Shown here: piece by piece, positions 4,907 through 22,320 of the stretch | Position numbering within the stretch: the stretch's first letter is position 1 | Layout: each line of letters begins with the position of its first letter | From: an uncultured Mediterraneibacter sp. | GTDB lineage: Bacteria > Bacillota > Clostridia > Lachnospirales > Lachnospiraceae | NCBI GenBank assembly: GCA_944381935.1 | Contig: CALWMN010000004.1 | Span: 1-64,000 of the forward strand | Direction: 5' to 3' | Length of the DNA: 64,000 nucleotides | The notes under the pieces: model-generated | The model's input: the letters and a program-made list of their open reading frames with translations, nothing else | What the model was told of the DNA's origin: nothing | Databases searched by the model: none | Made by a program: the position numbers and the translations under genes

Positions 4907-4920
4907 GATTTTTCTCCTTC

Positions 4921-5886
4921 CTAGAATAATGCATTCTCTTCATCAATCTTGGATACCAGTTTATTCGCACCCATGATCATGATGAATCCGACGACTGACT
5001 GGAACAGCGCCGCGGCCGAGCTCATTCCGATCTCACCGTTTGTCTGCAGCGCACGGAAGATATATGTATCCAGAACGTTTGTTACCGGGTAGAGCGGACC
5101 CGAATCTCTCGGCAGCTGGTAGAACAGCCCGAAATCCGATTTGAAGATTCCGCCCACGGCCATGATCAAAAGGATCGTGATGACCGGTTTTAACAGCGGA
5201 AGTGTAATGTACTTCATCTGCTGCCATTTTGTAGCGCCGTCTATTACGGCAGCCTCATAATAAGTCTTGTTGATGCCGCAGATAGACGCAAGGTATACGA
5301 CTGTATTGTAGCCGATTCCTTTCCACTGGCTCATGATGATAATGATGAATGGCCAGAGGCCTTTCTCTGTATACCATGAAATCCCGTCTCCTCCGAACTG
5401 CTGGATGATGGAATTGAAGTATCCTTTTTCCGGGTTCAGGAACGCATAGACACAGTAGCTTACAACAACCCATGAAAGGAAATACGGCAGGAACATGGAG
5501 CTTTGGTATACCTTTGTCATGCCTTTGTTCCTCAGCTCATTGAGCAGCAGCGCCACGATGACCGGAAGCACGACTCCCAGAATGATAAACGCGGCGTTGT
5601 AGAGAACCGTATTTCTCAGGATGGTCCACGCATCTCCGCTGCTGAACAGGAATTTGAAGTTGTCAAGGCCGACAAACTTACTGCTTATAAGACTCTCAAA
5701 GAAGTTGCCGGACAGCCGGTACTGTTTGAATGCCACAAGGATACCAAACAGCGGCAGGTAGGCAAAAAGCAGAAACCAGACGGCGCCAGGGGCGCTGAGG
5801 ATCAGAAGCTCTTTATTCATCTTTAACTTTGACAGAAATCCCCGCTTTTTCTTTTTTCCAGGACTCCCCTTTTTCTTCTCTTTCAC
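4921..5886 (-). CDS. ABC sugar transporter permease, LplB type
   Basis: This is the first gene of the importer. I choose GTG at 5886 (321 residues) because AAAAGGAGGT lies six bases before it; an upstream ATG at 5913 has no such site and would overlap it. The protein has a strongly basic N-terminus, then about six membrane segments beginning LLILSAPGAVWFLLFAYLPLFG. The EAA loop YYEAAVIDGATKWQQMKYITLP (in two pieces: YYEAAVIDGATKW and QQMKYITLP) contacts the ATPase. It forms the permease dimer with the downstream YtcP protein. A TATAAT -10 element precedes it, and the upstream AraC-type response regulator is the obvious candidate activator. Confidence 0.92.
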   Translation of the reverse strand: MKEKKKGSPGKKKKRGFLSKLKMNKELLILSAPGAVWFLLFAYLPLFGILVAFKQYRLSGNFFESLISSKFVGLDNFKFLFSSGDAWTILRNTVLYNAAFIILGVVLPVIVALLLNELRNKGMTKVYQSSMFLPYFLSWVVVSYCVYAFLNPEKGYFNSIIQQFGGDGISWYTEKGLWPFIIIIMSQWKGIGYNTVVYLASICGINKTYYEAAVIDGATKWQQMKYITLPLLKPVITILLIMAVGGIFKSDFGLFYQLPRDSGPLYPVTNVLDTYIFRALQTNGEIGMSSAAALFQSVVGFIMIMGANKLVSKIDEENALF

Positions 5887-6094: not shown

Positions 6095-7624
6095 TCAATA
6101 TTTTTTCATCCCTCTTAATGATGCCGGCGATACGCCGTAACACTGCTTGAACTTCCGGTAGAAATAGCTCGTATCCATATACCCCACCTCTTTTGCAATA
6201 TCATTGATCTTCATATTCGTATTCAGTATCATGTCCTTTGCCTTCTCATTTTTGATATTGCCCAGATACTTATTAAACGGGCATCCGACCTCCTTCTGGA
6301 ATATCTGTCCCAGATAGGATGCATTCATATGATATTTGTAGGAGAGAACCTTTAGGCTCAGATCCTCCCTGTAATTTTCCTGGATGTAATTCAGGATCTC
6401 CCGGATCACTGGTGTGTAGTGGGAATCTTCCGTATGGAGCGCCATAATCACGGCTGATATCTCCAGCACAAGCACGGTCCTCATGCCGGCAATGTCCTCC
6501 GCCCGGTAGATATGGTCGAATATCTCCGTCAGGCTCCTTACGGTCTTCGAGCTGCTGATCTTATATTCCGACTTAATATCCTGCAGAAGGAGTACCACCT
6601 TCAGCGCATTCTGATACACTTCATCAATATCCGATCCGGACTCCACAAGGCCAATAAAGAGTTCTTCAATATACTGTAGTGCTCCGTCCTGGTCCTTTTC
6701 CAGTATCTTCTTTCTCAGGTATGTAAGATCAATGGTAATTCCGCCCGGCTTTTTGCGGGCTATACTCTCTTCGCTCACCCCCCTGCCCCAGCCTGTCGTG
6801 ATGCGGTATCTGAGCAGATGGTTCATGCGCTGGTAACTCTCCGGCAGCTCCCCATAAGAGCTGATTGCATTTCCCGCCGCAAGAAATGTGAGGATGCCGC
6901 TGCCGCTCTCAATCTGGTTCTGTATCTCGGCGAATATCCGTTCCGCTCCCCTTATTTCTGTGTCTGCATCCGCGTAGAACAGAATCAGCAGGATATCCGT
7001 CTTCAGATAGATCGGTCTGATCTTTTCCGGCCGGTTCCTGAAGCCAATCAGGATGGGCGTAATCCCCTCCTGTTCTCCCACCGACTCCAGATCGATCTTC
7101 ATCAGTGCGGGAAAGATCCGCTCCGCGCCCTCGATCTGAGGGAGCATCTGGACAAAGTTCTTAATCTCCTCCGCTTTAAGCGCCCCTTTGAGGAACTGGG
7201 CCCAGCCGATTTTTTCCTCCATATTCGCCGCCTGCTTCATATCCATATCATCCAGCCTCTGGGACGCTTTTAAGAGCGCCTCCCTGAGCATTTCGTCATT
7301 GATTGGTTTCAGGATATACTCCTCTACATCAAGGCTGAGCGCTGTCCTCGCATATTCAAATTCATCGTAGCCCGACAGGATCAGGCATCTCGTCCGGGTA
7401 TTTTCCTTCCTGACCTCCCGGATCAGCTCCAGGCCGTCCATCAGGGGCATCTCCACGTCCGTGATTATGATGTCCACCGGATCCTGCCTGAATTTCTCCA
7501 GTGCCTCTTTCCCATTGTGGGCTGTATACGCCACCTCCATGTGAATGGCCGCCCAGTCAACAATACATAATATCCCCTGAAGGATAAATTCTTCATCCTC
7601 TACAAGCATTACTCTTTTCATCAT
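6095..7624 (-). CDS. AraC-type response regulator, YesN family
   Basis: This 509-residue cytoplasmic regulator has an N-terminal receiver domain (residues 1-125) with acidic pocket LVEDEEF and phospho-acceptor Asp in IIITDVEMPLMDG near residue 56. A long middle region follows, then a C-terminal AraC/XylS helix-turn-helix pair from about residue 405 to 505, with SYLGQIFQKEVGCPFNKYL and INDIAKEVGYMDTSYFYRKF. Its ATG overlaps the stop of the histidine kinase gene, so they are translationally coupled and form a YesM/YesN pair. It probably activates the adjacent importer and mannosidase genes in response to an extracellular glycan signal; the ligand cannot be read from sequence. Confidence 0.93.
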   Translation of the reverse strand: MMKRVMLVEDEEFILQGILCIVDWAAIHMEVAYTAHNGKEALEKFRQDPVDIIITDVEMPLMDGLELIREVRKENTRTRCLILSGYDEFEYARTALSLDVEEYILKPINDEMLREALLKASQRLDDMDMKQAANMEEKIGWAQFLKGALKAEEIKNFVQMLPQIEGAERIFPALMKIDLESVGEQEGITPILIGFRNRPEKIRPIYLKTDILLILFYADADTEIRGAERIFAEIQNQIESGSGILTFLAAGNAISSYGELPESYQRMNHLLRYRITTGWGRGVSEESIARKKPGGITIDLTYLRKKILEKDQDGALQYIEELFIGLVESGSDIDEVYQNALKVVLLLQDIKSEYKISSSKTVRSLTEIFDHIYRAEDIAGMRTVLVLEISAVIMALHTEDSHYTPVIREILNYIQENYREDLSLKVLSYKYHMNASYLGQIFQKEVGCPFNKYLGNIKNEKAKDMILNTNMKINDIAKEVGYMDTSYFYRKFKQCYGVSPASLRGMKKY

Positions 7625-9339
7625 TCACTTTTCTCCGTTCCCACCCAGATGATTACGGAAAGACCGCCGCCTTCTATGTTGTCAAGTGTAATCCCATATC
7701 CATTTCCGTAAACTGCTTTAATTCTTCTGTTTACATTTTCTATTCCGACAGACTGTGTCTGTCTGTATTCATTTTCCCTCAGTTCTCTGTTTTTCTCTTC
7801 CATCAGGGAGGCATCCATTCCCATGCCGTTGTCATCGGCCCGGAACACCACTCCGTCCCCATCCTCCTTGCGCCTCACGCTCAGGCAAATCCTGTTGTCA
7901 TTGTCCTGCCTGCGGATGCCGTGTATGAAATAGTTTTCTATGATCGGCTGCAGGATGAACTTGATGACTTTCTTCTCCATCATCTCTACCGGGCAGTCTA
8001 TCTCATAGGTAAATATCCCGTTATACCTGTACTCAAACAGCTCCAGATACTGCTTACAGTAATCCAGCTCCTGCCCGATGGTAATCCAGTCGGCGTCTTT
8101 TAGCTGGCTGCGGAACAGCACGGACATACTGTACAGCATCTTCCCCACTTCCCTGTCCCCGTTGCAGATTGCCTTCATCCGTATGACCTCAAGCGTATTG
8201 TACAGGAAATGCGGATTGATCTGATTCTGAAGCGCCTGAAGGTACGCATTTTTCTTCTCAATCTCCGCAAGATAACTTTTCTGGATATAATCATCCAGTT
8301 CCACACACATTTCATTGAAATTGCCGGAGATCATATCAAGCTCATCCCCGTTCTCCCTGACCGCAAGCCTCACCTGCAGATTTCCCGTTGTCACCTGATG
8401 CATTCCGTCCAGTATTACATCCACCCGGTCCGTCAGATGCCGGATATAGATATTGATGCAGAAGACTCCGCATGCGAAAATTGCAAGTCCCACTCCGATA
8501 ATTGCCAGAAGAGCCGACACAGGGATCGTTGCCGCCAGATTCCGGTTCAGCACCGAATAGATCTGATAGTCGTCGGCCTGTTCTTTATAGAGATCGCAGG
8601 CAGGGATCTGCCTTGGCGCCGTATCGCTGCGGAGCAGATTCTCCCAGTTTTCCGATTCTTCCGACGCACATACCAGACTTCCGTCATTTTTCGTAATGAC
8701 AAGCTCCATATAATCCATTCCCTCTACCAGATCTTCTACATCGCCGGCGCAGGAAAATGTAAAGATAAAGATTCCCTCCTGGGTCATTGTACCGGAATCC
8801 AGAATATTTCTGACAAACTGTAGCTTTCCGGGTTCCGTATAGCCTGAATCCTGAATCTGATCAAATACCGCGCTTCCGTCCTGATAGGGGTGGACCTCAT
8901 TTTCCGGCAGGAATGTAGTCAGTTTCCGGTCATCGAGGCTTAACAGATCGATACGCTCCAGCTCCGGATAAGCCTCAAAAGCTCTTGTCACAAACTGACG
9001 TATCCCTCTGTACTGGAGACTGTTGGAGGCGGAATACTGATCGAGGGAGTACTCCTGATATTTATCCGGATCCAGATTCAAAAAGGCGATCACATCCCTC
9101 AGTTCCTGTCCGTCCCGGTACAGCTCGCTGAACAGATAGTCCACTGCGTCCGCGTCCCCCTCCACCAGCGAAGCCGCCTCTGCCGCGATTCTCTGCGCAC
9201 TCTCCTGCCTGTTGTGCAGCGTGTCCCTGGCCAGGGCGCTGATAAAGTATACCGTCAGCGAAAGGACAATCAAAAAAACGATCACAATATAAGTCCAGAA
9301 CAGTTTAAAATATAATTGTCTTGGTTTTCTCTTTTTCAT
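7621..9339 (-). CDS. Sensor histidine kinase, YesM family
   Basis: This membrane kinase (572 residues from ATG 9339, chosen because AGAAGGAGGGGG precedes it) has one membrane segment near residues 10-32 (YIVIVFLIVLSLTVYFISAL), a large extracellular sensor region of about 230 residues, a second membrane segment near 265-290, a HAMP linker, and a His_kinase domain with the phospho-acceptor in QINPHFLYNTLEVIRM near residue 380. The ATPase domain shows ILQPIIENYF and DDNGMGMD. The C-terminus lies four bases into the response regulator gene. Being of the YesM type, it should sense a sugar or a loaded binding protein outside the cell. Confidence 0.93.
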   Translation of the reverse strand: MKKRKPRQLYFKLFWTYIVIVFLIVLSLTVYFISALARDTLHNRQESAQRIAAEAASLVEGDADAVDYLFSELYRDGQELRDVIAFLNLDPDKYQEYSLDQYSASNSLQYRGIRQFVTRAFEAYPELERIDLLSLDDRKLTTFLPENEVHPYQDGSAVFDQIQDSGYTEPGKLQFVRNILDSGTMTQEGIFIFTFSCAGDVEDLVEGMDYMELVITKNDGSLVCASEESENWENLLRSDTAPRQIPACDLYKEQADDYQIYSVLNRNLAATIPVSALLAIIGVGLAIFACGVFCINIYIRHLTDRVDVILDGMHQVTTGNLQVRLAVRENGDELDMISGNFNEMCVELDDYIQKSYLAEIEKKNAYLQALQNQINPHFLYNTLEVIRMKAICNGDREVGKMLYSMSVLFRSQLKDADWITIGQELDYCKQYLELFEYRYNGIFTYEIDCPVEMMEKKVIKFILQPIIENYFIHGIRRQDNDNRICLSVRRKEDGDGVVFRADDNGMGMDASLMEEKNRELRENEYRQTQSVGIENVNRRIKAVYGNGYGITLDNIEGGGLSVIIWVGTEKSE

Positions 9340-9393
9340 AACCCCCTCCTTCTCACCAAGTATCATACCACAAAAAGAGAGCATTGCTGCTCT

Positions 9394-10080
9394 CTAATTT
9401 TGTCCGGCTCCCGCCTGTTCATCCAGCATGCGAACTGCTTTGCGGTTCATGAACACGATCAGGAATCCGTATATACTTGCCATGAACAGTACCACTGTTC
9501 CGGCTTTGATCTCCAGCAGCATCAGGATAAAGACTGCTGCCGCCAGATTGCCGAACGTCAGCGCCGGCTTTGTGATTGTGAGTAAAACTGCTCCTCTGAA
9601 ATAATCCTTCACCGGCATCTGATATCTGGAAGACAGAAGATACAGGTTCGGCGTCATAAGCACGGTCCCCGCAAAGAGGACGATGAAAAGGAGCATCAGC
9701 GGAAGGCAGGGTATCTGCAGGCTGAAGAACTCCACATTTGTCCAGAATACCCACAGAAGCACCCCCTGAATGGCAGCCAGCAGGATCTTCTTGAAAAATT
9801 CATCCGTATAGCCTGCCCTGTAATCTTTCCATGCCCCTGTATATGTCCCGCGGAACATACGGTTCATGGCGAAAAGTACCGCAGAGAACGCCGGGCCTGC
9901 CGGGAGGAGGCACACCAGGAAGAAGGGAAGGTATTCCCTCACACGGGTGATCCCCACAAACAGGAAGAACAGCAGCACCGGAAGATTGGAAATCAGAAAA
10001 AACATATTAATCTTCAGGAAATACAAGATCTTCTCACAGACATCAAGTATCTTATCCAGATGGAACAGTTCACTTAACAT
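9394..10080 (-). CDS. DUF624 membrane protein, YesL-like
   Basis: This 228-residue protein has about five hydrophobic segments and belongs to the YesL/DUF624 family, whose members occur almost always beside YesM/YesN and LplB/YtcP systems. Family features include the N-terminal LDKILDVCEKILYFLKINMFFLISNLP stretch (start MLSELFHL) and RMFRGTYTGAWKDY near residue 75. The biochemical role of the family is unknown; a role in tuning the sensor or transporter is plausible. It lies 21 bp after the GH38 gene and 54 bp before the kinase. ATG at 10080 follows AAGGAGAG. Confidence 0.82.
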   Translation of the reverse strand: MLSELFHLDKILDVCEKILYFLKINMFFLISNLPVLLFFLFVGITRVREYLPFFLVCLLPAGPAFSAVLFAMNRMFRGTYTGAWKDYRAGYTDEFFKKILLAAIQGVLLWVFWTNVEFFSLQIPCLPLMLLFIVLFAGTVLMTPNLYLLSSRYQMPVKDYFRGAVLLTITKPALTFGNLAAAVFILMLLEIKAGTVVLFMASIYGFLIVFMNRKAVRMLDEQAGAGQN

Positions 10081-10101: not shown

Positions 10102-13100
10102 CTACAGCTCAAAAAGCACCGTCTTGATCTCATATGGATGAAGTGCCATGGAAACAGCTTCCTCCCCGTGTGCATCCCCGACCTTGCGCTCTCTTAAGTC
10201 TCCTTCTGTCCATGAGCGGAAACGGAAATTGGGTTTCAGCGTTACCTTCTGCCCGGATCCCGCGAAATCATGGAACCGTACAACAAGGCATCTGCCGTCC
10301 TCTGATTTCTTCACCGCGTCGATCTCTATCTGCGGGTTATCCACAGTGAAGAAGGAGCCGTCCCCTGACGCTTCCTGTCCGGCGCTTACAAGCATCGGAT
10401 TGTTCAGGGCGTAAGCCCCGCGGACAACATCTCCGCTCACAATATCGCCTGTATGCGGCAGCAGTGAATAAGTAAATACATGCTCGCCCACGTCCTGAAT
10501 GTGATCCGGCTGTCTGCCCGAACGGATAAGGGAGAGCCTGATCAGGTTTCCTTTCACGTCATAGCCGTATTTGCAGTCGTTCATCAGCGCAACACCATAA
10601 TTTCTCTCGGACAGATCCGCAAATCTGTGTCCCACAGACTCAAATCTTGCCTGATCCCAGCTCGTATTCCAGTGGTTCGGCCTGCGGACATTTCCGTACT
10701 GGATATCATAGGTCGCGTAGGTTGTTCGGATATCCACCGGGAACGCAGTCTTTAAGAGCTGCTGCCTCTCTTTGAAATCCACCTTTGTACTAAAGTCTAT
10801 CCTTCTGTCTGATGCATACAGGATCATATCCTGTTCGATCGTGGTATTCATATACTTCCATGCCAGACCGATGACCAGTCTTAACGGACCGCACTCTTTC
10901 ACTTCGTATTTCGTCAGGTCTGTCACCTCGCGCATCTTCTGCTGATAGAAGATATCAATGTCCCACGCGTCATTGTCAATCGGCTTATCCTCAAACATCT
11001 GCAGTACATTTCCCCGCTCGCCCGGCGCAAGCACGCTGCGGTCGTTTTGCTTATCATAGAGCTTTTCGATCTGTCCCTGCCCGTTGAGAGCGATGGTATA
11101 GAACGGAGTCTCGATCATGCGTCCGTCTGCACGGAACGGTGGGTTCTCCGGTACGTTCCCGCCGGTATCCGATTTGCTGTCCGCGTCTTTTGCCGCACGG
11201 AAGAAGATTGTCCGGTGTCCCATGGCGGGAACGTCTTTCACATGGACGTAAGTTACATCTTCCTCACGCTGGACCTCCAGCACATTGCCTGCCCCATCCG
11301 TAAACTCTCCGGCCTCGGCCGCCGGTACAGCCACGATCTCGTCCATATCCCAGCCGGATGCATTGTATACGGTCCATGCACTGCCCTCATTGTGCAGGCT
11401 GTCTGCAAGGTAATCCCGGATCACATCTGTCCCGATCTCCTCAACTTTCGCATAATCTCGTCTGGAATCTTCATATACCTCGTGGATAGAAGATCCCGGG
11501 ATAATATCATGGAACTGGTTTGTGAGGATCAACTTCCATCCCTGTGTCAGTTTCTCCTGCTCCGCCCTTTCAAGGCTTCCGGATCTTACGGCCTGCATAG
11601 CTGTCAGCCACTCTGCCTGACGGTAAAGGAGCTCCATCTTCCGGTTCATGCGCTTGTTGTATCCCTGGCTTGTGTAAGTACCGCGGTGGTACTCCAGATA
11701 AAGCTCTCCGTCCCATGTGTGTACATACCGGTCTGTATTTTCCACCGTCTCCTTCAGGTCACGGAAGAACTCTCCTGCCGTGGACGTCTCAAGGGAAGGA
11801 AGTCCCGGGATCTTGTCTATCCTGCGCCTTCTCTCCAGAAGGTCACGGTTTACACCGCCGCCTCCGTCTCCGTATCCGTAGGCGATCAGCAGCTCCTGAT
11901 TCATTTCCTTTTCACTGTAGGCATCCCATACTCCCTTTACCGTCTTCGCGGTGAGAAGTCCGTTGTATGTATAGAACCATGATCCCGGCTCATTCCACGG
12001 CTCCGGTGTGGTGATAAAGTGGGTCAGCACTTCACTTCCGTCAATCCCTTTCCACTTAAAGGTATCGTGGGGCATACGGTTGTACTGGTTCCAGCTGATT
12101 TTTGTTGTCATGAACATATCGATGCCGGATTTTTTCAGGATCTGGGGCAAAGCCCATGAATAGCCGAATACGTCCGGGAGCCAGAGGTATTCCACCTCCT
12201 TGCCAAATTCATCCTTGATAAACTTGCTTCCGATCAGGATCTGGCGGGTGAGCGACTCGCCGCTTGTCAGGTTGCAGTCCGCTTCTACCCACATACCGCC
12301 GTCCACTTCCCAGCGTCCCTCTTTTACTCTCTTTTTGATCTCCCCGTAGATCTCAGGGAAATCTTCTTTTATGTATTCGTACAGCTGGGGCTGTGTCTGC
12401 AGGAAAATGTATTCCGGGAACATTTCCATCATTCTCAGCACAGTCGAGAAAGACCTTGACGCTTTCTCATGGGTATGCTTCAGCCTCCAGAGCCATGCCA
12501 TATCGATATGGGTGTGTCCCACGCATTTTACTCTTACGAGGGAATCTTTTTTCATTCCCTCGATCTTCTCATTGAGCAGGTCATCCGCCTGATGCACGGA
12601 CTCGTAGAAGTCTCCGCTTCCCGGGTAGGACCAGTCAATGAGCAGGCACGCCTCGTCCAGCGCATTTCTCAGTTCAAACTTAACCGGGTCTGTATCCGAC
12701 AGATTTTGTACCGTATCGAGCACCAACATTCCCATGTAATAGAAATCGTCTGTTTTTTCATCAAGATATGCCAGATCCGCACGGTTGATCCTGTGCTCCT
12801 GCTCTTTCGGCACGCCGCCGCCCTCCAGGCCGGACCAGAGGCGGAACGTCAGGCGGAATGTCTTTCCGTAAAGCTCCTCCGGGAAGAAGACTTCCTTATG
12901 GTTTGCATCCACTCCCTGATACGGCTTCCCATTGATATAGCACATCGCCTCAAATCCGGAATTGTTTCCTGCTCCTGTCTTTCCGAAATCAAAGATTCCG
13001 ACAGCCCGTTTCCCTTTCCAGGCCTCCGGTATTGTGATCTCCTTGTGGAGCCACAGATAACGGTCGCGCCCGCTCCATCTGTCCCCGGTATGTATTATGT

Positions 13101-13251
13101 CCCATCCCCCAGACTCTGTGGGAACCTCCGGGTTCACAATGCCCTGCCGATCCTCGCGTGCAGCGAACTCTTCCAGAGCGGCAACTTCTCTGTAACTGTA
13201 TTCTCTTATCTCAGTGATTCTTCTGTCAAGTTTTCTCTCTGTCAAAAACAT
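10102..13251 (-). CDS. Alpha-mannosidase, GH38 family
   Basis: This 1049-residue enzyme hydrolyses alpha-linked mannose. The GH38 catalytic domain is complete: the zinc-binding HxD is in GHTHIDMAWLWR near residue 247, the nucleophile Asp is in GGMWVEADCNLTSGES near 325, and WLPDVFGYSWALPQIL near 357 is another hallmark. A mid-domain follows with NQFHDIIPGSSIHEVYEDS near 600, and then the C-terminal beta-sandwich domains. There is no signal peptide, so it works in the cytoplasm on imported glycans. ATG at 13251 follows AGGAGG. It lies 122 bp after the GH125 gene on the same strand, and the two enzymes likely trim alpha-1,2/1,3 and alpha-1,6 mannose together. Confidence 0.95.
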   Translation of the reverse strand: MFLTERKLDRRITEIREYSYREVAALEEFAAREDRQGIVNPEVPTESGGWDIIHTGDRWSGRDRYLWLHKEITIPEAWKGKRAVGIFDFGKTGAGNNSGFEAMCYINGKPYQGVDANHKEVFFPEELYGKTFRLTFRLWSGLEGGGVPKEQEHRINRADLAYLDEKTDDFYYMGMLVLDTVQNLSDTDPVKFELRNALDEACLLIDWSYPGSGDFYESVHQADDLLNEKIEGMKKDSLVRVKCVGHTHIDMAWLWRLKHTHEKASRSFSTVLRMMEMFPEYIFLQTQPQLYEYIKEDFPEIYGEIKKRVKEGRWEVDGGMWVEADCNLTSGESLTRQILIGSKFIKDEFGKEVEYLWLPDVFGYSWALPQILKKSGIDMFMTTKISWNQYNRMPHDTFKWKGIDGSEVLTHFITTPEPWNEPGSWFYTYNGLLTAKTVKGVWDAYSEKEMNQELLIAYGYGDGGGGVNRDLLERRRRIDKIPGLPSLETSTAGEFFRDLKETVENTDRYVHTWDGELYLEYHRGTYTSQGYNKRMNRKMELLYRQAEWLTAMQAVRSGSLERAEQEKLTQGWKLILTNQFHDIIPGSSIHEVYEDSRRDYAKVEEIGTDVIRDYLADSLHNEGSAWTVYNASGWDMDEIVAVPAAEAGEFTDGAGNVLEVQREEDVTYVHVKDVPAMGHRTIFFRAAKDADSKSDTGGNVPENPPFRADGRMIETPFYTIALNGQGQIEKLYDKQNDRSVLAPGERGNVLQMFEDKPIDNDAWDIDIFYQQKMREVTDLTKYEVKECGPLRLVIGLAWKYMNTTIEQDMILYASDRRIDFSTKVDFKERQQLLKTAFPVDIRTTYATYDIQYGNVRRPNHWNTSWDQARFESVGHRFADLSERNYGVALMNDCKYGYDVKGNLIRLSLIRSGRQPDHIQDVGEHVFTYSLLPHTGDIVSGDVVRGAYALNNPMLVSAGQEASGDGSFFTVDNPQIEIDAVKKSEDGRCLVVRFHDFAGSGQKVTLKPNFRFRSWTEGDLRERKVGDAHGEEAVSMALHPYEIKTVLFEL

Positions 13252-13373
13252 AAGTACCTCCTACATACAGTCAGTATTCTAACTGCCTTTATTGTACCGA
13301 AAGTTTTTTTACAGAACAATTTTCCAATTTCTATGTTTAGTGTAAAAATTCTACATTCCGGTCAGTCACAGGC

Positions 13374-14660
13374 TCAGATCTCCAGCCTGTAGCCGAGATA
13401 ATCCAGAAAGAGTTCCGCGTACATGGCGTTCGCCCAGGAGAACCATTCTCTCGTATACTTTCCCGCATCGTCGGAGCAGAACCCTTCATGCATCATTCCC
13501 GTCCCCCCGGTGCAGGATACAAGCGTGTCAAGGATCTTCCGCTTCTCTTCTTGGCTGCTCTCCGTCAATCCCTGCATCGCCAGGGCGATCGGCCAGATAT
13601 AGCCCGCAGGCGTATGGGGGCTTCCGATCCCGGCTGCTTCCGTTCCTTTATAATAATACGGGTTTGCCTCGCTTAGGATCATTTTCCGGGTATTCTCCAT
13701 GGTCTCCCGGTCCGCCGGATATCCCAGATAGGACATGGACAGAAGACTGGGGACATTGGCGTCGTCCATCAGATTGAACATGCCGTATCCGTCCGCCTCA
13801 TAGGCATAGACTGTACCGAACGCCTCCGTCCGCGTCCGTCCATGCTTTTCGATCCCATTATGGATCTGATCTTTCAGGATGCCTGCCTCTTTTGCCAGCG
13901 TCCCATCGCACAGAATCTTCTCCGCAATTTCTTCCAGATATCCCAACACCACGACGGCAAACATATTGGACGGGATCAGGTAGCCGTATGTACACGCGTC
14001 GTCGCTTGGGCGGAAACCCGACCACACCATCCCGATATCCGGCTTCACACAGGTCCCCCTCCCCTCCCTGGAAAGGGTATCTGTATAGAAACTGCCCTCG
14101 CGCACAAACCGATAGGCAGAGTGATACTCATGGTTCTGCTCCATTCGGAAGACATTCAGGATCTTCCGCACCCCGGTCCGAAAATTCCCGTCAAACTGCT
14201 CCGTGCATCCGGTATTCTTCCAGAGCATCCATGCAAGCTGAATGGGATAGCAAAGAGAATCCACCTCGAACTTTCTCTCCCACACCCAGGGGCTCTGGTC
14301 CGGATCATCCTTCTCCCAGCACGCTCCCGTGGGGCCTTCGTTGAATGCATTTGCATAGGGGTCCAGGCTGATGCAGAAAAACTGCCGCTTCACAAGACCT
14401 GCGATCATTTTCCGTATCTCTTCATTTTGTTTTGCCGGAAACAGGAAAGGACGAATCTGTGCGGCAGAGTCTCTCAGCCACATCGCCGGGATATCCCCCG
14501 TGATCACATACACAGTCCCGTCGTCTTCCATTTTCACTGTCGTCTCAAGGGTATTCAAAAAGCAACGTTCAAACTGTTCCAACAGCTTCTCTTCTGCTTT
14601 TACATTCTCCCTGACTTCCTTAAGAAATCCATATAAACTTTCATTACGGATTGTTTCCAT
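13374..14660 (-). CDS. Exo-alpha-1,6-mannosidase, GH125 family
   Basis: This 428-residue cytoplasmic enzyme matches GH125 (formerly DUF1237), inverting exo-alpha-1,6-mannosidases. Signatures are ITGDIPAMWLRDSAAQIRP near residue 53, GPTGACWEKDDPDQSPWVWERKFEVDS (GPTGACWEKDD, then VWERKFEVDS) near 109-135, WSGFRPSDDACTYGY near 213, and HEGFCSDDAGKYTREWFSW near the C-terminus. It is the promoter-proximal gene of the GH125-GH38-yesL-kinase-regulator run. In pneumococci GH125 and GH38 enzymes cooperate in N-glycan use, which supports the same role here. ATG at 14660 has a spaced GGAG. Confidence 0.94.
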   Translation of the reverse strand: METIRNESLYGFLKEVRENVKAEEKLLEQFERCFLNTLETTVKMEDDGTVYVITGDIPAMWLRDSAAQIRPFLFPAKQNEEIRKMIAGLVKRQFFCISLDPYANAFNEGPTGACWEKDDPDQSPWVWERKFEVDSLCYPIQLAWMLWKNTGCTEQFDGNFRTGVRKILNVFRMEQNHEYHSAYRFVREGSFYTDTLSREGRGTCVKPDIGMVWSGFRPSDDACTYGYLIPSNMFAVVVLGYLEEIAEKILCDGTLAKEAGILKDQIHNGIEKHGRTRTEAFGTVYAYEADGYGMFNLMDDANVPSLLSMSYLGYPADRETMENTRKMILSEANPYYYKGTEAAGIGSPHTPAGYIWPIALAMQGLTESSQEEKRKILDTLVSCTGGTGMMHEGFCSDDAGKYTREWFSWANAMYAELFLDYLGYRLEI

Positions 14661-14865: not shown

Positions 14866-15525
14866 TTAATTCAATATGAAATGATTTCTGTCAAAGGACA
14901 GGATCCCCTCATCTCTCATCCTGCACAACTCCGCAGACATAGCGCTCCGATCCACCGAGAGGAAGTCCGCGAGCTGCTGCCGGTTAAAAGGGATGTCAAA
15001 TACCGGGCTCCCGGCTCTCTGGGACTGCTCTGACAGATAGGACAGGAGCTTTTCCCTCGTCGTCCTTCTGGACATGTGCTCCAGTTTCTGGGTAAGCATT
15101 TTATTCTTTTGTGCAAGCGCGGTAAGCAGATTACGGATCAGCCGCCCGTGAAACCGGCATGCCGACGGGCACATGGTAAGGATCCGCTTCACATCCAGGA
15201 AAAGCACTTTGCTCGGTTTTACTGCAACTGCATTGTTCAGCAATTCATCACTCCCGAGGCAGGCATACACTTCCCCGAACAGTTCTCCTTCTGAAATTTC
15301 GCTGAGAATACTCAGGTTTCCCCAGTAATCTTCTTTCTGAATATGGATGCAGCCTTCCAGAAGCAGCGCCACGCTGTCGATTCGTTCTCCTCTGCTGAAG
15401 ACAGATTCTCCTTTATAGTAATTCCGCGTAACAGCTGACAGACAGTCAAGCATGGACGCAAGTTCGTCTTCTCCGATTCCCTGAAAGAGCTTTGAGTTTT
15501 TCAATCGCGGTAAATATTTTTTCAT
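14866..15525 (-). CDS. Crp/Fnr-family transcriptional regulator (HcpR-like)
   Basis: This 219-residue regulator has an N-terminal cyclic-nucleotide-binding-like fold (residues 10-125, with YYKGESVFSRGERIDSVALL and GELFGEVYACLG) and a C-terminal winged helix (FNRQQLADFLSVDRSAMSAEL near 170). ATG at 15525 follows AGAAAGGTG. It is divergent from hcp, which in many anaerobes is controlled by Crp/Fnr regulators called HcpR that respond to nitrosative stress. An inverted repeat GTTGTATTTGCAAC in the shared spacer fits self-repression and hcp activation. The effector (possibly haem-bound NO) cannot be seen. Calling it HcpR is inference from context. Confidence 0.85.
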   Translation of the reverse strand: MKKYLPRLKNSKLFQGIGEDELASMLDCLSAVTRNYYKGESVFSRGERIDSVALLLEGCIHIQKEDYWGNLSILSEISEGELFGEVYACLGSDELLNNAVAVKPSKVLFLDVKRILTMCPSACRFHGRLIRNLLTALAQKNKMLTQKLEHMSRRTTREKLLSYLSEQSQRAGSPVFDIPFNRQQLADFLSVDRSAMSAELCRMRDEGILSFDRNHFILN

Positions 15526-15537
15526 AATCACCTTTCT

Positions 15538-15551
15538 GTTGTATTTGCAAC
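15538..15551. promoter_or_regulatory. Crp/Fnr-like operator between the regulator and hcp
   Basis: GTTGTATTTGCAAC has TTG-N6-CAA symmetry as in Crp/Fnr sites. Its centre (15544.5) lies about 41.5 bp before the hcp start predicted from TATACT at 15574-15579, the class II activation position, and just downstream of the predicted start of the regulator transcript. Confidence 0.55.
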
Positions 15552-15566
15552 TGTTTTGTTTTAAAC

Positions 15567-15595
15567 ATTGTATTATACTCGCCATGTAAAGTCAA
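15567..15595 (-). promoter_or_regulatory. Promoter of the Crp/Fnr-type regulator
   Basis: TTGACT (15595-15590) and TACAAT (15572-15567) are separated by 17 bp, a near-consensus vegetative promoter directed toward the regulator gene. Confidence 0.65.
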
Positions 15596-15672
15596 GCAAT
15601 GCAATAGAAACATCAATCACAGTGCCGGTATGCAGGCCAAAATGCAGCCGGCAACAACAGGAGGTTATGAAA

Positions 15673-17265
15673 ATGTCAGACAAAATGTTTTGTTTTCAGT
15701 GTGAACAGACTGCAGGATGTACCGGATGCACCGGGAAAGCCGGAGTATGCGGGAAGACCGCAGATGTGTCCGCACTTCAGGATGAACTTACAGGCGCCTT
15801 GGTCGGCCTTGCCCGGGCAGCCAGCGGAAATGCCCCTTCCCCGTCCACTCACAGGGCAATGATCGAAGGGCTGTTCACAACCGTCACCAACGTAAACTTT
15901 AACGAAGAGACAGTCCGCCAGCAGATCGAAAATGTAACGCGGGAGAAAAATGCACTGATCCCCGGATGCGGAGCCTGTCTTTCGTCCTGCGGCAGGACGG
16001 AAGATTATGATATGCAGCTCCTCTGGGATGCAGACGAAGACATCCGTTCTCTGAAATCCCTGATCCTCTTCGGCCTCAGAGGGATGGCAGCGTATGCGTA
16101 CCACGCAATGGTACTGGGATATTCCGACGAAGAAGTCAATACTTTCTTCTACGAAGGACTGTTCGCCATCGGCGAAGATCTGGACAGGGAACAACTTCTC
16201 CCTGTCGTAATGAGGGTGGGCGAGATCAACCTGAAATGCATGGCTCTTCTGGATCAGGCAAACACTGAGACCTACGGGGATCCGGCACCTGTCACTGTAC
16301 CGCTTACAGTAGAAAAAGGACCGTTTATCGTGATCAGCGGGCACGACCTGAAAGACCTGCAGCTTCTCCTGGAGCAGACAGGGGGGAAAGGGATCAATAT
16401 CTATACCAACGGCGAGATGCTCCCGGCACACGCATATCCGAAACTGAAAGCTTATTCTCACCTGAAAGGAAATTTCGGGACCGCATGGCATAATCAGCAG
16501 AAAGAGTTCGCTGACATTCCGGCTCCGATCCTGTTTACGACCAACTGCCTGATGCCGCCGAAAGCCAGCTATGCAGACCGTGTATTCACAACGGAGGTGG
16601 TCTCTTATCCCGGAGTCGTCCACATTGGCGAAGATAAGGATTTCACACCTGTTATTGAAAAGGCCCTGGAGCTTGGCGGTTACGCGGAAGATCAGGAATT
16701 TGCCGGGCTCAACGGCGGAAGGAGTGTCACCACAGGATTTGCCCGCAATACCGTATTATCCGCCGCGGATACGATCGTCAATGCAGTAAAAGACGGCGCC
16801 TTAAAGCACATCTTTCTTGTTGGCGGATGCGACGGGGCAAGAAACGGCCGCAGCTATTACACCGAGTTTGTAAAGCAGACGCCGTCCGATACGGCAGTGC
16901 TCACTCTTGCCTGCGGAAAATACCGCTTCAATGACCTTGACCTAGGATCGATCGGAGGACTTCCCCGGATCATGGACATGGGGCAGTGCAACGACGCATA
17001 CAGTGCGATCCGGGCTGCTCTTGCTCTGGCGGATGCGTTCGGCTGCGGCGTCAACGACCTGCCCCTCACCCTGGTGCTGTCATGGTATGAACAGAAAGCC
17101 GTCTGCATCCTCCTCACTCTCCTGCACCTGGGTATCCGAAATATTTACCTCGGACCTACGCTCCCGGCATTCCTCTCTCCCGGCATACTGGATTTCCTCG
17201 TAGAGAATTACGGGATCCGTCCGACTTCCACACCGGAGCAGGACCTAAAGGAAATACTCGGATAA
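15673..17265 (+). CDS. hcp: Hydroxylamine reductase / hybrid-cluster protein
   Basis: This 530-residue enzyme is the hybrid-cluster protein, which reduces hydroxylamine to ammonia and, in current work, NO to N2O. The N-terminal cysteines CFQC-x8-C-x6-C (residues 5-23) bind the iron-sulphur cluster. Hybrid-cluster ligands lie in ALIPGCGACLSSCGR (about 97), FTTNCLMPP (about 293), VGGCDGAR (about 387), LTLACGKYRFN (about 414) and the C-terminal domain. I prefer ATG 15673 over 15667 because AGGAGG ends at 15664, giving eight-base spacing. It protects against nitrosative stress. It is monocistronic, divergent from its likely regulator, and followed by a hairpin. Confidence 0.95.
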   Translation: MSDKMFCFQCEQTAGCTGCTGKAGVCGKTADVSALQDELTGALVGLARAASGNAPSPSTHRAMIEGLFTTVTNVNFNEETVRQQIENVTREKNALIPGCGACLSSCGRTEDYDMQLLWDADEDIRSLKSLILFGLRGMAAYAYHAMVLGYSDEEVNTFFYEGLFAIGEDLDREQLLPVVMRVGEINLKCMALLDQANTETYGDPAPVTVPLTVEKGPFIVISGHDLKDLQLLLEQTGGKGINIYTNGEMLPAHAYPKLKAYSHLKGNFGTAWHNQQKEFADIPAPILFTTNCLMPPKASYADRVFTTEVVSYPGVVHIGEDKDFTPVIEKALELGGYAEDQEFAGLNGGRSVTTGFARNTVLSAADTIVNAVKDGALKHIFLVGGCDGARNGRSYYTEFVKQTPSDTAVLTLACGKYRFNDLDLGSIGGLPRIMDMGQCNDAYSAIRAALALADAFGCGVNDLPLTLVLSWYEQKAVCILLTLLHLGIRNIYLGPTLPAFLSPGILDFLVENYGIRPTSTPEQDLKEILG

Positions 17266-17367: not shown

Positions 17368-18363
17368 TCACCCGCTCTCCCGTTCCACCAATTGAGACGT
17401 AAATACCAGATGCTGCGCCGTTGGCTTCTGGTCTGCCGGCGCCTCTATTTCTTCTATTGTCATGGATGCAGCCTTCACTCCCATTTCATAGGCAGGCATC
17501 TCCAGCGAAGTCATGGACGTCTCCAGCATACTGCTGATAACATCGCCGGTCAGGCTTATCACCCTGACCTGGTCCGGGAAACTGACCTCACTTTCTTTCA
17601 GGGCACGCATTGCCCCGATACCCTGAATATCTGTTGCCGCCATAATCGCATCCAGATCCGGATTCTGCGCCATCAGCTCCATAGTACACTGATAGCCATA
17701 TTCAAGACTGTGGACCGACGATTCAGACACTGCGCATGTCTCGGAAAATCCCAGTTCTTTCAGCGCCCTCTGGTATCCGTCGTATCTGCCCTTATACGGA
17801 GAAAGCTTCATGGATCCGTTAATAAGCCCAATCTCACTGCATCCCTTTCCTGCAAGATATTTCACCGCCTCATACCCGCACGCCTCGTAGTCGACTGTAA
17901 CGCTGCTGACAGTCTCGATCTGCTTTCTCATGATCTGAGTAACAGCAAGGCCGCTTGTCTTGATATCGCGTATAATCCGGCTGTTTCTTCCTGTTCCGGT
18001 AATGATAATCCCATCAACAAAACCATTCCTCAGACGGTTAAGGCTTTCACGTTCTATCTTTGCATCGTCTTCTGTGTTGCATATCAGCGTCGCATAACCT
18101 CTCTTGCGGGCTTCCTCCTCGATCCCCTGGGTTGTCGCCGCAAATACCGTCATGTGCAGGCGGGGAACCAGCACTCCTATCGTGTGCCTTTTCCCGTGCC
18201 TTAATCCCTGTGCCAGTACGTTTGGCGTGTAGCTTAGTTCTTTTACTGCTGCAAGGATACGCGCTTTTGTCTCTGGATGTACATAAGAAGTATTGTTCAA
18301 CGCACGGGAAACCGTACTCACATCAACATCCGCAAGCTTTGCAACATCCTTCAGTGTAGCCAT
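17368..18363 (-). CDS. LacI-family transcriptional regulator
   Basis: This 331-residue repressor starts with the LacI helix-turn-helix (ATLKDVAKLADVDVSTVSRALNN, as LKDVAKLADVDVSTVSRALN at residues 4-23) and hinge helix (NVLAQGLR), then a periplasmic-binding-protein-like effector domain (IGVLVPRLHMTVFAATTQGIEEEA; IGLINGS; AIMAATDIQGIGAMRAL). ATG at 18363 follows AAAGGGAGGTG. It is divergent from the aldolase/NRAMP-like operon, and both promoters hold matching operators, so it should repress itself and that operon until an unknown effector, perhaps a sugar acid, binds. Confidence 0.93.
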   Translation of the reverse strand: MATLKDVAKLADVDVSTVSRALNNTSYVHPETKARILAAVKELSYTPNVLAQGLRHGKRHTIGVLVPRLHMTVFAATTQGIEEEARKRGYATLICNTEDDAKIERESLNRLRNGFVDGIIITGTGRNSRIIRDIKTSGLAVTQIMRKQIETVSSVTVDYEACGYEAVKYLAGKGCSEIGLINGSMKLSPYKGRYDGYQRALKELGFSETCAVSESSVHSLEYGYQCTMELMAQNPDLDAIMAATDIQGIGAMRALKESEVSFPDQVRVISLTGDVISSMLETSMTSLEMPAYEMGVKAASMTIEEIEAPADQKPTAQHLVFTSQLVERESG

Positions 18364-18384
18364 TATCGTCACCTCCCTTTCTTG

Positions 18385-18398
18385 TACAAAGGTTTGCA
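18385..18398. promoter_or_regulatory. LacI-type operator of the regulator gene
   Basis: TACAAAGGTTTGCA matches the perfect palindrome at 18590-18603 at 12 of 14 positions and lies just downstream of the regulator's predicted transcription start, which suggests autorepression. Confidence 0.65.
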
Positions 18399-18405
18399 TA
18401 AAAAA

Positions 18406-18435
18406 ATTATAACCAATAATTTATCTGGAAGTCAA
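18406..18435 (-). promoter_or_regulatory. Promoter of the LacI-family gene
   Basis: TTGACT (18435-18430) and TATAAT (18411-18406) with an 18-bp spacer point to the regulator gene. The operator at 18385-18398 follows at once. Confidence 0.65.
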
Positions 18436-18546
18436 CATAATATATATCAAAAATAACAAAAATAATCCAAAAAATGGATATCTTTTTATGATTTATGCAA
18501 ATTATTGCATCATATATGCAAAATATTGCAGAGGTTATCCAAAATA

Positions 18547-18575
18547 TTGACGCCGAAAATGATACATGCTATAAA
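18547..18575 (+). promoter_or_regulatory. Promoter of the aldolase/NRAMP-like operon
   Basis: TTGACG (18547-18552) and TATAAA (18570-18575) are separated by exactly 17 bp. The predicted start near 18582 is eight bases before the operator at 18590. Confidence 0.7.
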
Positions 18576-18589
18576 AGAATCACAAGATA

Positions 18590-18603
18590 TACAAACGTTT
18601 GTA
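18590..18603. promoter_or_regulatory. LacI-type operator, perfect palindrome
   Basis: TACAAACGTTTGTA is a perfect 14-bp palindrome with the central CG typical of LacI-family sites. Placed at about +8 to +21 of the operon promoter, it would block transcription when bound. The remaining sequence of this 337-bp intergenic region is AT-rich and shows no other feature I can support. Confidence 0.75.
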
Positions 18604-18700
18604 CATAAAAGGACAATGCGCAGGTCCTGAATCAAAACCCAAATTTCTGTTATAGGATGAAACAATAATTTATTACCATAAACAAAAAGGAGAATTTATC

Positions 18701-19675
18701 ATGGCTAAAGTAAAAACATTTAAAACAATCTTTCCGGCAGTTTCCGTTCCGCTTAACGACGACTATTCCATCAATGAAAAAGAATTTCGCGCTTACCTCC
18801 GCTGGATCAAGAGCTTCTACGGAAAAGGGATCGAGGGTCTCGTATGCAACGGACATACCGGCGAGATCACCGGATTAAGCCGCGCAGAGCGAAAACGTGT
18901 CGTAGAGATCTGCTCAGAGGAATGTGGCGATGTTATGACGATCATCTCCGGAATCAACTGTGAAAACACAATCGAGAGCATCGAGATGGCAAAAGAGGCG
19001 AAAGAAGCCGGCGCTGATGGGATTCTTCTGATGCCGCCTCACATGTGGCTCCGCTTCGGCATGAACGAGAACGCTCCGTTTGAATACGTCAAAGACGTCG
19101 CAGAAGGCGCTGACATTGATATCATCATCCACCTGTATCCGGCTACAAGCAAAGCCTTCTATCCGGTTGAAACTCTGATCAAAATGTGCAAGGAGATCGA
19201 TCATGTAAAATGCATCAAGATGGGAACACGTGTCACATCGATTTACGAGCATGACGTAAGGCTGCTCCGCGAAGAGTGCCCGGACATCTCACTTATCACA
19301 TGCCATGACGAGACACTGTGCGTAAGCTGGTTCCCGGGTATGGACGGAGCCCTGATCGGTTTCGCAGGATGTGTGCCGGAGCTGATCTGCCCGGCATGGG
19401 ATGTATTCAAAAATCCTGAGAAGCACACGCTGAAAGAAGCCCAGGACTGGTCAAACCGGATCTATCATATCTCCCAGGCGATTTACGGAGGCGGCCAGCC
19501 TTCCGGAGAAGCACATGCGCGCCTGAAAGAGGCCCTGGTACAGCGCGGAGTCTTCAAATCCGCCCTGATGCGCAAACCTGTCCTCCCCCTGAACCAGGAA
19601 GAGAAAGACTGGGTTGCCCTTGGAATCACACGCAGTGGGCTCCCAAAAGTTGACATGGGGCAGTACGAAGACTAA
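18701..19675 (+). CDS. DapA-family class I aldolase/lyase, substrate unknown
   Basis: This 324-residue TIM-barrel protein belongs to the dihydrodipicolinate synthase/N-acetylneuraminate lyase family, which forms a Schiff base between a lysine and a pyruvate-like keto acid. Visible residues are CNGHTGEITGLSRAER near residue 50 (carboxylate-binding), the tyrosine in IIHLYPATSKAF near 145, and the candidate lysine in KCIKMGTRVTS near 175. It is longer than true DapA (about 290 residues), and a LacI repressor controls it, so a catabolic sugar-acid or hydroxy-keto acid aldolase is more likely than lysine synthesis. It shares an operon with an NRAMP-like transporter. ATG at 18701 follows AAGGAG. 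Confidence 0.87.
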   Translation: MAKVKTFKTIFPAVSVPLNDDYSINEKEFRAYLRWIKSFYGKGIEGLVCNGHTGEITGLSRAERKRVVEICSEECGDVMTIISGINCENTIESIEMAKEAKEAGADGILLMPPHMWLRFGMNENAPFEYVKDVAEGADIDIIIHLYPATSKAFYPVETLIKMCKEIDHVKCIKMGTRVTSIYEHDVRLLREECPDISLITCHDETLCVSWFPGMDGALIGFAGCVPELICPAWDVFKNPEKHTLKEAQDWSNRIYHISQAIYGGGQPSGEAHARLKEALVQRGVFKSALMRKPVLPLNQEEKDWVALGITRSGLPKVDMGQYED

Positions 19676-19686
19676 AGGTACTCAAA

Positions 19687-19744
19687 GCTGTGGCTGTCAG
19701 AAAAGCAATACATTACTTGCCTCCGGCAGTCACAGTTCTTTTTT
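19687..19744 (+). terminator. Intra-operon terminator-like hairpin
   Basis: CTGTGGCTG (19688-19696) pairs with CAGTCACAG (19727-19735, one mismatch) and is followed by TTCTTTTTT. It lies between the aldolase and transporter genes and could reduce transporter expression. Confidence 0.5.
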
Positions 19745-19759
19745 ATCAGGAGGTATGAT

Positions 19760-21037
19760 ATGGGTAAAGTAATGATAGACGGAAAGGAAGTGAAAAAACT
19801 TTCCTTTCTTGAAATAGTCAAGAGGGTCGGGCCGGGGATCATTCTGACGGGCGTTGTCATCGGGCCGGGCAACATCACCACATCCGCCATGCTGGGTGCC
19901 AACTACGGCTACCGGATGATCTGGCTGATCATCCCGATTGCATTTATGGGAATCACCTTTATGCTCACTACATACAGAATCGGTATGCTTTCGGGGATGC
20001 CGATCATCCATGCGATCCGGCATTATTATGGAAAAGTTGCAGCCGCCTTCGTCGGAATCGCCACTTTCCTGGCATGCTTCTTTTTTACACTGGGGAACAT
20101 CACCGGAACGGGGACAGGAATGACTTTGATTTTCGGCATTAACTGGAAACTGGGGGCGATCATTATGCTTGCGGTTCTTGCTTACTGTTATTTTTCAAAG
20201 GGAGTATATTCCAAAGTAGAAAAAGGGATTCTCCTCTGTATCCTTGCCATGATCGTCGCATTCTACGCAACCTTAGTATCGGCAGGCGGTCCCGACTGGG
20301 GTGAGATGGGATATGGTCTTACTCACTGGGGATTCGCAGCGGGCAGCTTTGCCACCGCTCTTGGATATATCAGCACAAATGCTGCTGTCACATCCGGGAT
20401 TTACGGTACTTATCTCGGGGCAGAGAAGAAATGGAAAAAAGAGGATCTCTTTAACGGCGCCATGCTGGCGGACGCAATCGCACATGTAGTCAGCGTAATC
20501 CTGATCTCAGGCGCCGTCGTTCTCGTAGGTGCAATCGTCCTGTTTCCGCAGGGAATCTCCATTACGGCACCGCAGCAGCTGGCAGATCTGCTCGTGCCGT
20601 TTATGGGAAATGCGGCAAAATACATGATGGGAATTGCTCTGGTGGGAGCCGGGTTTTCTTCTTTGCTTGGCAATACGCAGAGAGGGATGGTTCTTCTCAA
20701 TGCAGGATTCGACAAAGAAGTCGGCCTGGAATCGAAATCCATCCAGTGGGGATGCATGGTCTGTATCGCGGTTGCCTGTGTGATATGCTTCGCATACGGC
20801 GGTTCCCCGACGCAGCTGATCTACATGGCAAACGTCGCAACCGCCATCGCAACTCCCGTGGCAGGTTTCTTTATCACACGGATGATCTTCAGGAAGGATA
20901 TTTTCAAAGGATATCCGACTCCTACCGTACTCAAGATCTGCATGCTTATCAGTTATGTTTTCGTGCTGATTATGACATTTTTCGCTCTGAAAAATTCCGT
21001 TCCTGCACTGGTCAATTCAATCGTCAATCTGTTTTAA
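19760..21037 (+). CDS. NRAMP-family-like membrane transporter lacking the metal-site residues
   Basis: This 425-residue protein has about eleven membrane segments and clear NRAMP ancestry. However, the first-helix metal motif DPGN is VIGPGNITTS (near residue 37), with Gly in place of the metal-binding Asp. The sixth-helix MPHN-type motif is absent; the region reads ALGYISTNAAVTSGIYG (near 196). Canonical manganese/iron transport is therefore unlikely. It sits downstream of a DapA-family aldolase under a LacI repressor, which suggests uptake of the organic substrate of that enzyme. ATG at 19760 follows CAGGAGG. Family membership is seen; substrate is inference. Confidence 0.85.
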   Translation: MGKVMIDGKEVKKLSFLEIVKRVGPGIILTGVVIGPGNITTSAMLGANYGYRMIWLIIPIAFMGITFMLTTYRIGMLSGMPIIHAIRHYYGKVAAAFVGIATFLACFFFTLGNITGTGTGMTLIFGINWKLGAIIMLAVLAYCYFSKGVYSKVEKGILLCILAMIVAFYATLVSAGGPDWGEMGYGLTHWGFAAGSFATALGYISTNAAVTSGIYGTYLGAEKKWKKEDLFNGAMLADAIAHVVSVILISGAVVLVGAIVLFPQGISITAPQQLADLLVPFMGNAAKYMMGIALVGAGFSSLLGNTQRGMVLLNAGFDKEVGLESKSIQWGCMVCIAVACVICFAYGGSPTQLIYMANVATAIATPVAGFFITRMIFRKDIFKGYPTPTVLKICMLISYVFVLIMTFFALKNSVPALVNSIVNLF

Positions 21038-21636: not shown

Positions 21637-22320
21637 TTATTCTGCCAGCCCGATGCTGCTCAGCCACCCTGACACTGTCTCAGCGCAGCCAGCCGCCTCA
21701 CTGCTTCCCAGCGAGAGTCCTTCCGTAACATCTGCATCCGGCTCCATCTCTGCGATTGTAGCAAGAGAACCTGAAAACCCGCTTCCTCCGCTTGTATTAA
21801 AAGGAGCCACCGTTTTCCCTGAGAGATCATACTCGTCCAGGAATGTATAGAGGATCATCGGCATATCGCCCCACCAGTTAGGGAATCCCAGAAAAACCGT
21901 GTCATATCCTGACAGGTCCACCCTATCCGCAATCGCAGGACGGGCATCACTGCTCTGCTCCTCCTGTGCAACGTCAAGAAGCTCATTATAGTCATCTGTG
22001 TAAGGCTCTGCCGGAACAATTTCAAACAGATCCGCCCCTGTCTGGTTCTGGATTTCCTGCGCTACATCCTCTGTATTGCCCGACCAGGAAAAATAGACAA
22101 CCAGCGCACCGCTCTCCCCGGCAGCCCTTTCCGCACCATCTTCTGTATTCTCTTCCTGCCCGGCATCGGCATCCGCTGGATTCTGGCTATCTGCATTTTC
22201 TTTTGCCTGATCAGATACCGTACTGCCATCTCCAGTCTGGCTGCCGCATGCAGCCAGGCAAATAGCCGCCGTTCCGGCAATCATGACAGAAATCATTTTT
22301 TTCAATCGTTTTGTTTTCAT
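21637..22320 (-). CDS. Flavodoxin-domain lipoprotein
   Basis: This 227-residue protein starts at ATG 22320 (AGGAGG six bases before it) and has a lipoprotein signal, KKMISVMIAGTAAICLAAC, so the flavodoxin domain should be outside the membrane. After an acidic, low-complexity linker (DSQNPADADAGQEENTEDG) comes a flavodoxin fold: ALVVYFSWSGNTEDVA (FMN phosphate loop), AEPYTDDYNELLDVA, VFLGFPNWWGDMPM and PFNTSGGSGFSGSL. It is the last gene of a seven-gene redox operon. An exported flavodoxin may carry electrons at the cell surface; this is inference. Confidence 0.88.
   Translation of the reverse strand: MKTKRLKKMISVMIAGTAAICLAACGSQTGDGSTVSDQAKENADSQNPADADAGQEENTEDGAERAAGESGALVVYFSWSGNTEDVAQEIQNQTGADLFEIVPAEPYTDDYNELLDVAQEEQSSDARPAIADRVDLSGYDTVFLGFPNWWGDMPMILYTFLDEYDLSGKTVAPFNTSGGSGFSGSLATIAEMEPDADVTEGLSLGSSEAAGCAETVSGWLSSIGLAE

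Follow-up and report, generated by a model that had tools for sequence, protein, structure and literature searches.

What does an Nramp-related protein transport when the known metal ligands of its family are replaced and its gene follows that of an aldolase-type enzyme? This question is raised by a locus on contig CALWMN010000004.1 (GenBank assembly GCA_944381935.1) of an uncultured Mediterraneibacter sp., of which positions 1 to 64,000 (the window) were analysed. A gene for a LacI-family protein on the minus strand diverges from an enzyme–transporter gene pair on the plus strand, with 84 bases separating the enzyme gene from the downstream transporter gene. All three open reading frames lie where a first-pass annotation, made from the sequence alone, had placed them.

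17368-18399, minus strand: LacI-family regulator gene (PF00356 + PF13377)
18701-19675, plus strand: DHDPS-family (PF00701) aldolase-type enzyme gene, with the signature GHTGE / MPPHxWLRF / HxYP / KxGxR / CHDE
19760-21037, plus strand: Nramp-related transporter gene (PF01566), without DPGN or MPH, proposed organic-acid importer

Sequence comparisons indicate that the Nramp-related protein probably imports the organic-acid substrate of the enzyme. Import of this substrate is the most likely function because the same enzyme is found elsewhere beside TAXI-TRAP, MFS or SSS carriers, with repeated swaps on the enzyme tree. In the mechanism that we infer, as regards transport direction, identity of cargo and enzyme substrate, chemistry and substrate class, the three genes would together make up a catabolic cassette complete in itself. 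Its LacI-family protein would repress the divergent promoter region via paired operators, and the Nramp-related protein, which has a LeuT-type fold, would take up an organic acid. Lys173 of the enzyme would then form a Schiff base with the 2-oxo group of the imported acid, followed by cleavage or dehydration. Pyruvate plus an aldehyde, or a comparable product, would be the most likely outcome.

Linkage of the gene pair and exchange of the carrier

Genome contigs were scanned for relatives of the transporter, and the best 80 of 83 stretches were used, corresponding to 79 loci with 59-96% identity. Eight loci were too short for the linkage count. Where 1 kb or more of sequence precedes the transporter gene (71 loci), the enzyme gene is located directly upstream on the same strand in 69 cases, so that the linkage on which the first-pass annotation had staked its proposal is conserved. 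At L015, the enzyme gene lies approximately 7 kb from the transporter gene with a TAXI-TRAP pair between them, and at L052 TAXI-TRAP genes are located directly upstream of the transporter gene. The hosts include Lachnospiraceae, Oscillospiraceae, Streptococcus, Enterococcus, Veillonella, Bacillaceae and two metagenome-assembled genomes of spirochaetes. The next most widespread genuine flanking family (by eye an ABC ATPase) occurs at 14 of the 79 loci; two larger flanking clusters are apparently antisense frames over the module itself. The nearest relative found, locus L002 of an uncultured Mediterraneibacter, matches the window in one block (17368-21033, 84.2% over 3675 bases), which covers exactly the three genes and nothing beyond. 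Upstream of this block no match between L002 and the window was detected, and downstream there are just three shorter, weaker matches, the first at 21713.

Among 99 related genomes, ranging from the same genus to the same order, five, including that of the window, possess a transporter of this type, adjoined each time by the enzyme; two of the five (G018 and G005) give a partial match. In G008 (L083/L087/L089), enzyme and transporter genes are both broken by frame changes, due to decay or assembly errors. A search of the open-access PMC literature revealed no paper on this enzyme–transporter pair.

The same enzyme subfamily is accompanied by a TAXI-TRAP pair at L126, L128, L129, L130 and L132, by an MFS carrier at L127, L133 and L134 and by an SSS carrier at L131 and L135. 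The 36-row enzyme tree, in which L130 and L135 are long, requires seven changes of the Nramp label, at least six of which well supported branches make unavoidable, and nine changes for the four labels combined. Of five other genomes in which the enzyme was found, four are without a PF01566 match; the fifth, G478, has four matches, and the three that were examined belong to other types. Within a group of Bacilli with approximately 45% enzyme identity, the partners are Nramp-like, TAXI-TRAP and MFS carriers. Bacilli and Veillonella enzymes with 44-55% identity to that of the window are paired with transporters of 63-78% identity (54% and 78%, respectively, for Veillonella R32). It follows that the pair was assembled more than once.

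TAXI-TRAP systems are uptake systems with a periplasmic-type binding protein. In the literature, TRAP receptors are said to be limited to carboxylates (PMC4646407), and a TAXI protein is described as glutamate-specific (PMC11574862). The simplest reading is that all swapped carriers import one and the same organic acid, and the organic-acid role proposed initially is strengthened by the swaps. L135 presents a sugar-acid setting, with an SDR, a member of the mandelate-racemase family, the SSS carrier and an alpha/beta hydrolase. Extra enzymes also lie near other distant relatives (UbiD and a class II aldolase in L128, DUF6282 and UbiD in L130). As these extra enzymes do not point to one common pathway, naming the substrate from the neighbours was abandoned. 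Added context searches in the classes of G212 and G407 yielded 1 of 12 and 2 of 72 genomes, respectively.

The transporter clade and its partner enzyme

The transporter matches the Pfam family Nramp (PF01566) with 159.9 bits (cut-off 29.8) and has the full NRAMP fold with broken transmembrane helices (TM) 1 and 6. As first described, GPGN replaces DPGN and an MPH-type motif is missing: TM1 reads VIGPGNITT and TM6 YISTNAAVTSGIYG, with STNAAVT in TM6, and MPH occurs in none of the aligned clade rows shown. The position of the TM1 Asp is occupied by Gly (G35) and that of the TM3 Glu by Asn (N113), each in 49 of 49 clade sequences. With the known metal ligands replaced, it is fair to say that Mn or Fe cannot be bound in the known way. 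The residue following GPG is A in 27, N in 16, S in five and V in one of the 49 sequences; the Asn of GPGN is therefore not a feature of the clade. R308 in TM8 is present in all 49 sequences and was not seen in the other aligned clades. It is a candidate for binding a carboxylate, but its position in the helix may put it in the cytoplasmic half. In the transporter tree, which held YcsG-like rows and left out the named Bacillus subtilis YcsG, PxpT and NRMT sequences, the window clade and the YcsG-like clade each form one side of a 100/100 branch. The alignment with NRAMP subfamilies suggested by the first-pass annotation thus sets apart a clade without TM1 Asp and TM3 Glu, and membership in the YcsG/PxpT clade was rejected with respect to the YcsG-like rows.

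The enzyme belongs to the DHDPS superfamily (PF00701, 105.7 bits, cut-off 22.1), and its predicted model has the DHDPS fold (pLDDT 92.3). K173 is invariant among its relatives and aligns with the Schiff-base Lys of DapA. Alignment to a solved DapA (3flu) placed H52, H114, M115, H144 and T149 at the positions of Thr44, Tyr106, Tyr107, Tyr133 and Arg138, respectively; we take these numbers to be those of E. coli DapA, which agrees with the titles of mutant structures. The carboxylate loop is GHTGE instead of GTTGE, and His144 occupies the position of the catalytic Tyr (HLYP vs YNVP), with a Tyr two residues further on. Of the carboxylate-binding loop, Tyr and Lys that the enzyme was said to keep, only Lys173 is retained as described: the loop is altered, and according to the DapA alignment the Tyr is not the catalytic one. 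Similarly, of the proposed import and cleavage of a keto or sugar acid, the organic-acid part is supported, whereas aldol cleavage is something we can only infer, because the catalytic Tyr is out of place and the carboxylate loop is not intact.

His 52, 114, 144, 202 and 272 are invariant among the enzyme relatives. The motifs GHTGE, MPPHxWLRF, HxYP, KxGxR and CHDE follow one another in this order in 101 of 101 full-length entries with at least 200 bits (78 of 78 distinct sequences); the count leaves out 12 short or weak rows, including L136 and L152, whose enzymes lack parts of the signature. Across 54 loci, the median identity to the window is 89% for the enzyme and 66% for the transporter. 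The profile libraries searched assigned no function, the enzyme remaining under each curated cut-off listed. DapA was rejected (82.1 vs 206.15 bits for the equivalog; triad Thr44-Tyr107-Tyr133 and Arg138 not kept), as was a role in lysine biosynthesis, for which the same genome has a better dapA elsewhere (333.4 bits). N-acetylneuraminate lyase, the top equivalog by score, was rejected as well (85.6 vs 281 bits). Judging from its residues, the enzyme may catalyse a Schiff-base cleavage or dehydration. A 2-oxo or 2-keto-3-deoxy sugar acid fits best as the substrate class, perhaps with a second carboxylate, since the invariant residues are rich in His, Arg and Lys.

Regulator, operators and neighbouring genes

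The regulator is a LacI-family protein with a helix-turn-helix domain (PF00356) and a ligand domain (PF13377) according to Pfam. It scores under each NCBIfam equivalog cut-off among those listed. Two LacI-type operators were found:

18385-18398, no strand: LacI-type operator with one mismatch, TACAAAGGTTTGCA, at the lacI 5′ end
18590-18603, no strand: exact LacI-type operator, palindrome TACAAACGTTTGTA, ahead of the enzyme gene

Translation of lacI probably begins at the ATG at 18363 (MATLKDVAKLADV), in which case the operator at 18385 would fall within the lacI leader. Of 65 upstream regions, 43 contain the pattern TRCAAACGWTTGYA exactly, 51 with at most one mismatch and 57 with at most two; dinucleotide-preserving shuffles of these regions gave means of 0.0, 0.16 and 1.9, respectively. 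Since TRCAAACGWTTGYA was derived from the same 65 regions, these counts describe the motif and are no independent test. Together with the exact palindrome at 18590-18603, they support the control by a LacI protein through LacI-type operators that had been predicted. LacI relatives (at least 50% identity over at least 250 amino acids) are encoded at 52 of the 79 loci. Eight regions lack TRCAAACGWTTGYA even with two mismatches allowed (L004, L006, L026, L041, L058, L076, L078 and L079), and six of them have only a LacI protein of approximately 26-27% identity, as expected of an operator that is tied to its regulator.

Between both operators (18496-18530) lie two more palindromes, TGCAAATTATTGCA and TGCAAAATATTGCA, without a central CG. 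Elsewhere in the window, adjoining GH38 and GH125 mannosidase genes are located at 10102-14660, and a prismane/hybrid-cluster-type gene with a divergent Crp-like regulator gene at 14866-17265.

Alternative explanations and known systems

Several points weigh against import of the enzyme substrate. The whole genome of L052 yielded no such enzyme, so that the transporter is kept there without it. With His at the positions of the catalytic Tyr and Thr of DapA, aldolase chemistry is uncertain. Import is not evident from the sequence, and LeuT-fold carriers are able to work in either direction. Canonical DPGN/MPH genes were found in just 8 of the 25 host genomes examined, a count that leaves aside other metal importers, for which no search was made; as the window transporter is also the single PF01566 match of its own genome, redundancy cannot dismiss a metal role. 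Finally, YcsG reportedly imports Mn in vivo (PMC10448178).

Part of this evidence would suit a metal importer with an unusual site, e.g. for Mn2+ or Mg2+, co-regulated with a metal-requiring enzyme. The protein is a PF01566 member with the full NRAMP fold, the invariant His residues of the enzyme could in principle hold a metal, YcsG (mntG) is likewise an NRAMP relative in an organic-acid operon, and NRMTs have shifted to Mg2+ (PMC8806188). We nevertheless judge a metal cargo improbable: neither the TM1 Asp nor the TM3 Glu is kept in any of the 49 clade sequences, the carriers that accompany the same enzyme elsewhere (TRAP, MFS or SSS) come from families not known to transport metals, the cassette is controlled by a LacI protein that has an operator of its own, and presence in only five of 99 related genomes is unlike a housekeeping metal importer. 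The reversibility of LeuT-fold carriers would also permit export of the product, or its exchange for a substrate that enters otherwise or arises in the cell; this is the least probable alternative, given that the replacing TAXI-TRAP systems serve uptake. The least unlikely one, though still with little chance, is import of an organic compound other than the direct substrate, such as an inducer or a precursor needing enzymes encoded elsewhere. It would explain a cassette with one enzyme only, to which L135 adds an SDR, a mandelate-racemase-family protein and a hydrolase, and L128 and L130 add UbiD and others; at 69 of 71 loci, however, LacI, enzyme and transporter are the only common genes. Import of the enzyme substrate thus remains our preferred function.

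NRAMP proteins are regarded as metal carriers, and databases annotate genes of the clade as 'divalent metal transporter'. A clade replacing TRAP, MFS and SSS carriers of one enzyme offers a direct route to testing a second substrate class in the NRAMP fold and bears on the origin of its metal selectivity. Tentatively, much of the Nramp-related branch without TM1 Asp might consist of carboxylate carriers, the window clade importing the substrate of a new His-for-Tyr DHDPS-superfamily enzyme, and metal transport might be derived in the branch that gained the Asp. Hints come from YcsG-like genes with pxp genes, from L152 and L136 and from haloarchaeal relatives. Of twelve loci with YcsG-like paralogues, seven adjoin LamB_YcsF by Pfam, two pxp-like genes by eye and three neither.

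L152 (G478) encodes an Nramp relative with GPGS in TM1, a DHDPS-family protein (26% identity to that of the window) and a mandelate-racemase-family protein (4591-5817, 7278-8246 and 8259-9455). On a Neorhizobium petrolearium plasmid (L136, 4647-8230), genes for LacI, a DHDPS-family enzyme (30%; GHAGE, FQYP and CHDE) and an Nramp-like protein (27%) are arranged as in the window. Haloarchaeal plasmids (L137, L138 and L153-L156) carry Nramp relatives with GPGS or GPGT in TM1, adjoining Gfo/Idh oxidoreductases, a heparinase-like gene or hydantoinase/oxoprolinase pairs. In Shouchella and Marinococcus (L105-L107), Nramp relatives with high PF01566 scores combine GPGT in TM1 with VPYN in TM6.

Among known systems, canonical Nramp/MntH (SLC11) proteins have DPGN, MPH and the TM3 Glu, none of which occurs in the window clade. 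The canonical, NRAT and NRMT clades all retain the TM1 Asp, and the NRMT site motif is DxxG-TxxA/T (PMC8806188); EleNRMT and other NRMTs (Mg2+) thus differ from the window clade, which has Gly at this position. Unlike DapA, NanA, YagE and other DHDPS-superfamily members, the enzyme has His where DapA has Thr44 and Tyr133. Salmonella xynABC and the E. coli yjh/yag xylonate operons combine a regulator, a sugar-acid carrier and a DHDPS-family aldolase (PMC12445098) and resemble the cassette in having one of each, but they possess an MFS carrier, a dehydratase gene and an IclR-type regulator. PxpT of Corynebacterium glutamicum, assigned to the NRAMP family by its authors, is required for growth on 5-oxoproline, although they leave metal transport possible (PMC13274462, 2026). 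For its B. subtilis homologue YcsG, renamed mntG, an increase in cellular Mn was reported, and an earlier 5-oxoproline effect may be polar according to the authors of that report (PMC10448178). Organic-acid operons around NRAMP relatives therefore recur, and the cargo of the YcsG/PxpT sister group is contested. Like PxpT and YcsG, the window transporter is an NRAMP-family protein in an organic-acid operon, and YcsG-like sequences also lack the TM1 Asp; their partners are PxpABC and a GntR regulator instead of a DHDPS-family enzyme and LacI, and the TM6 and TM8 motifs of the YcsG-like rows differ. A non-metal role is not unprecedented for an NRAMP relative, PxpT being the precedent; the window clade stands apart from the PxpT/YcsG type, with another partner enzyme.

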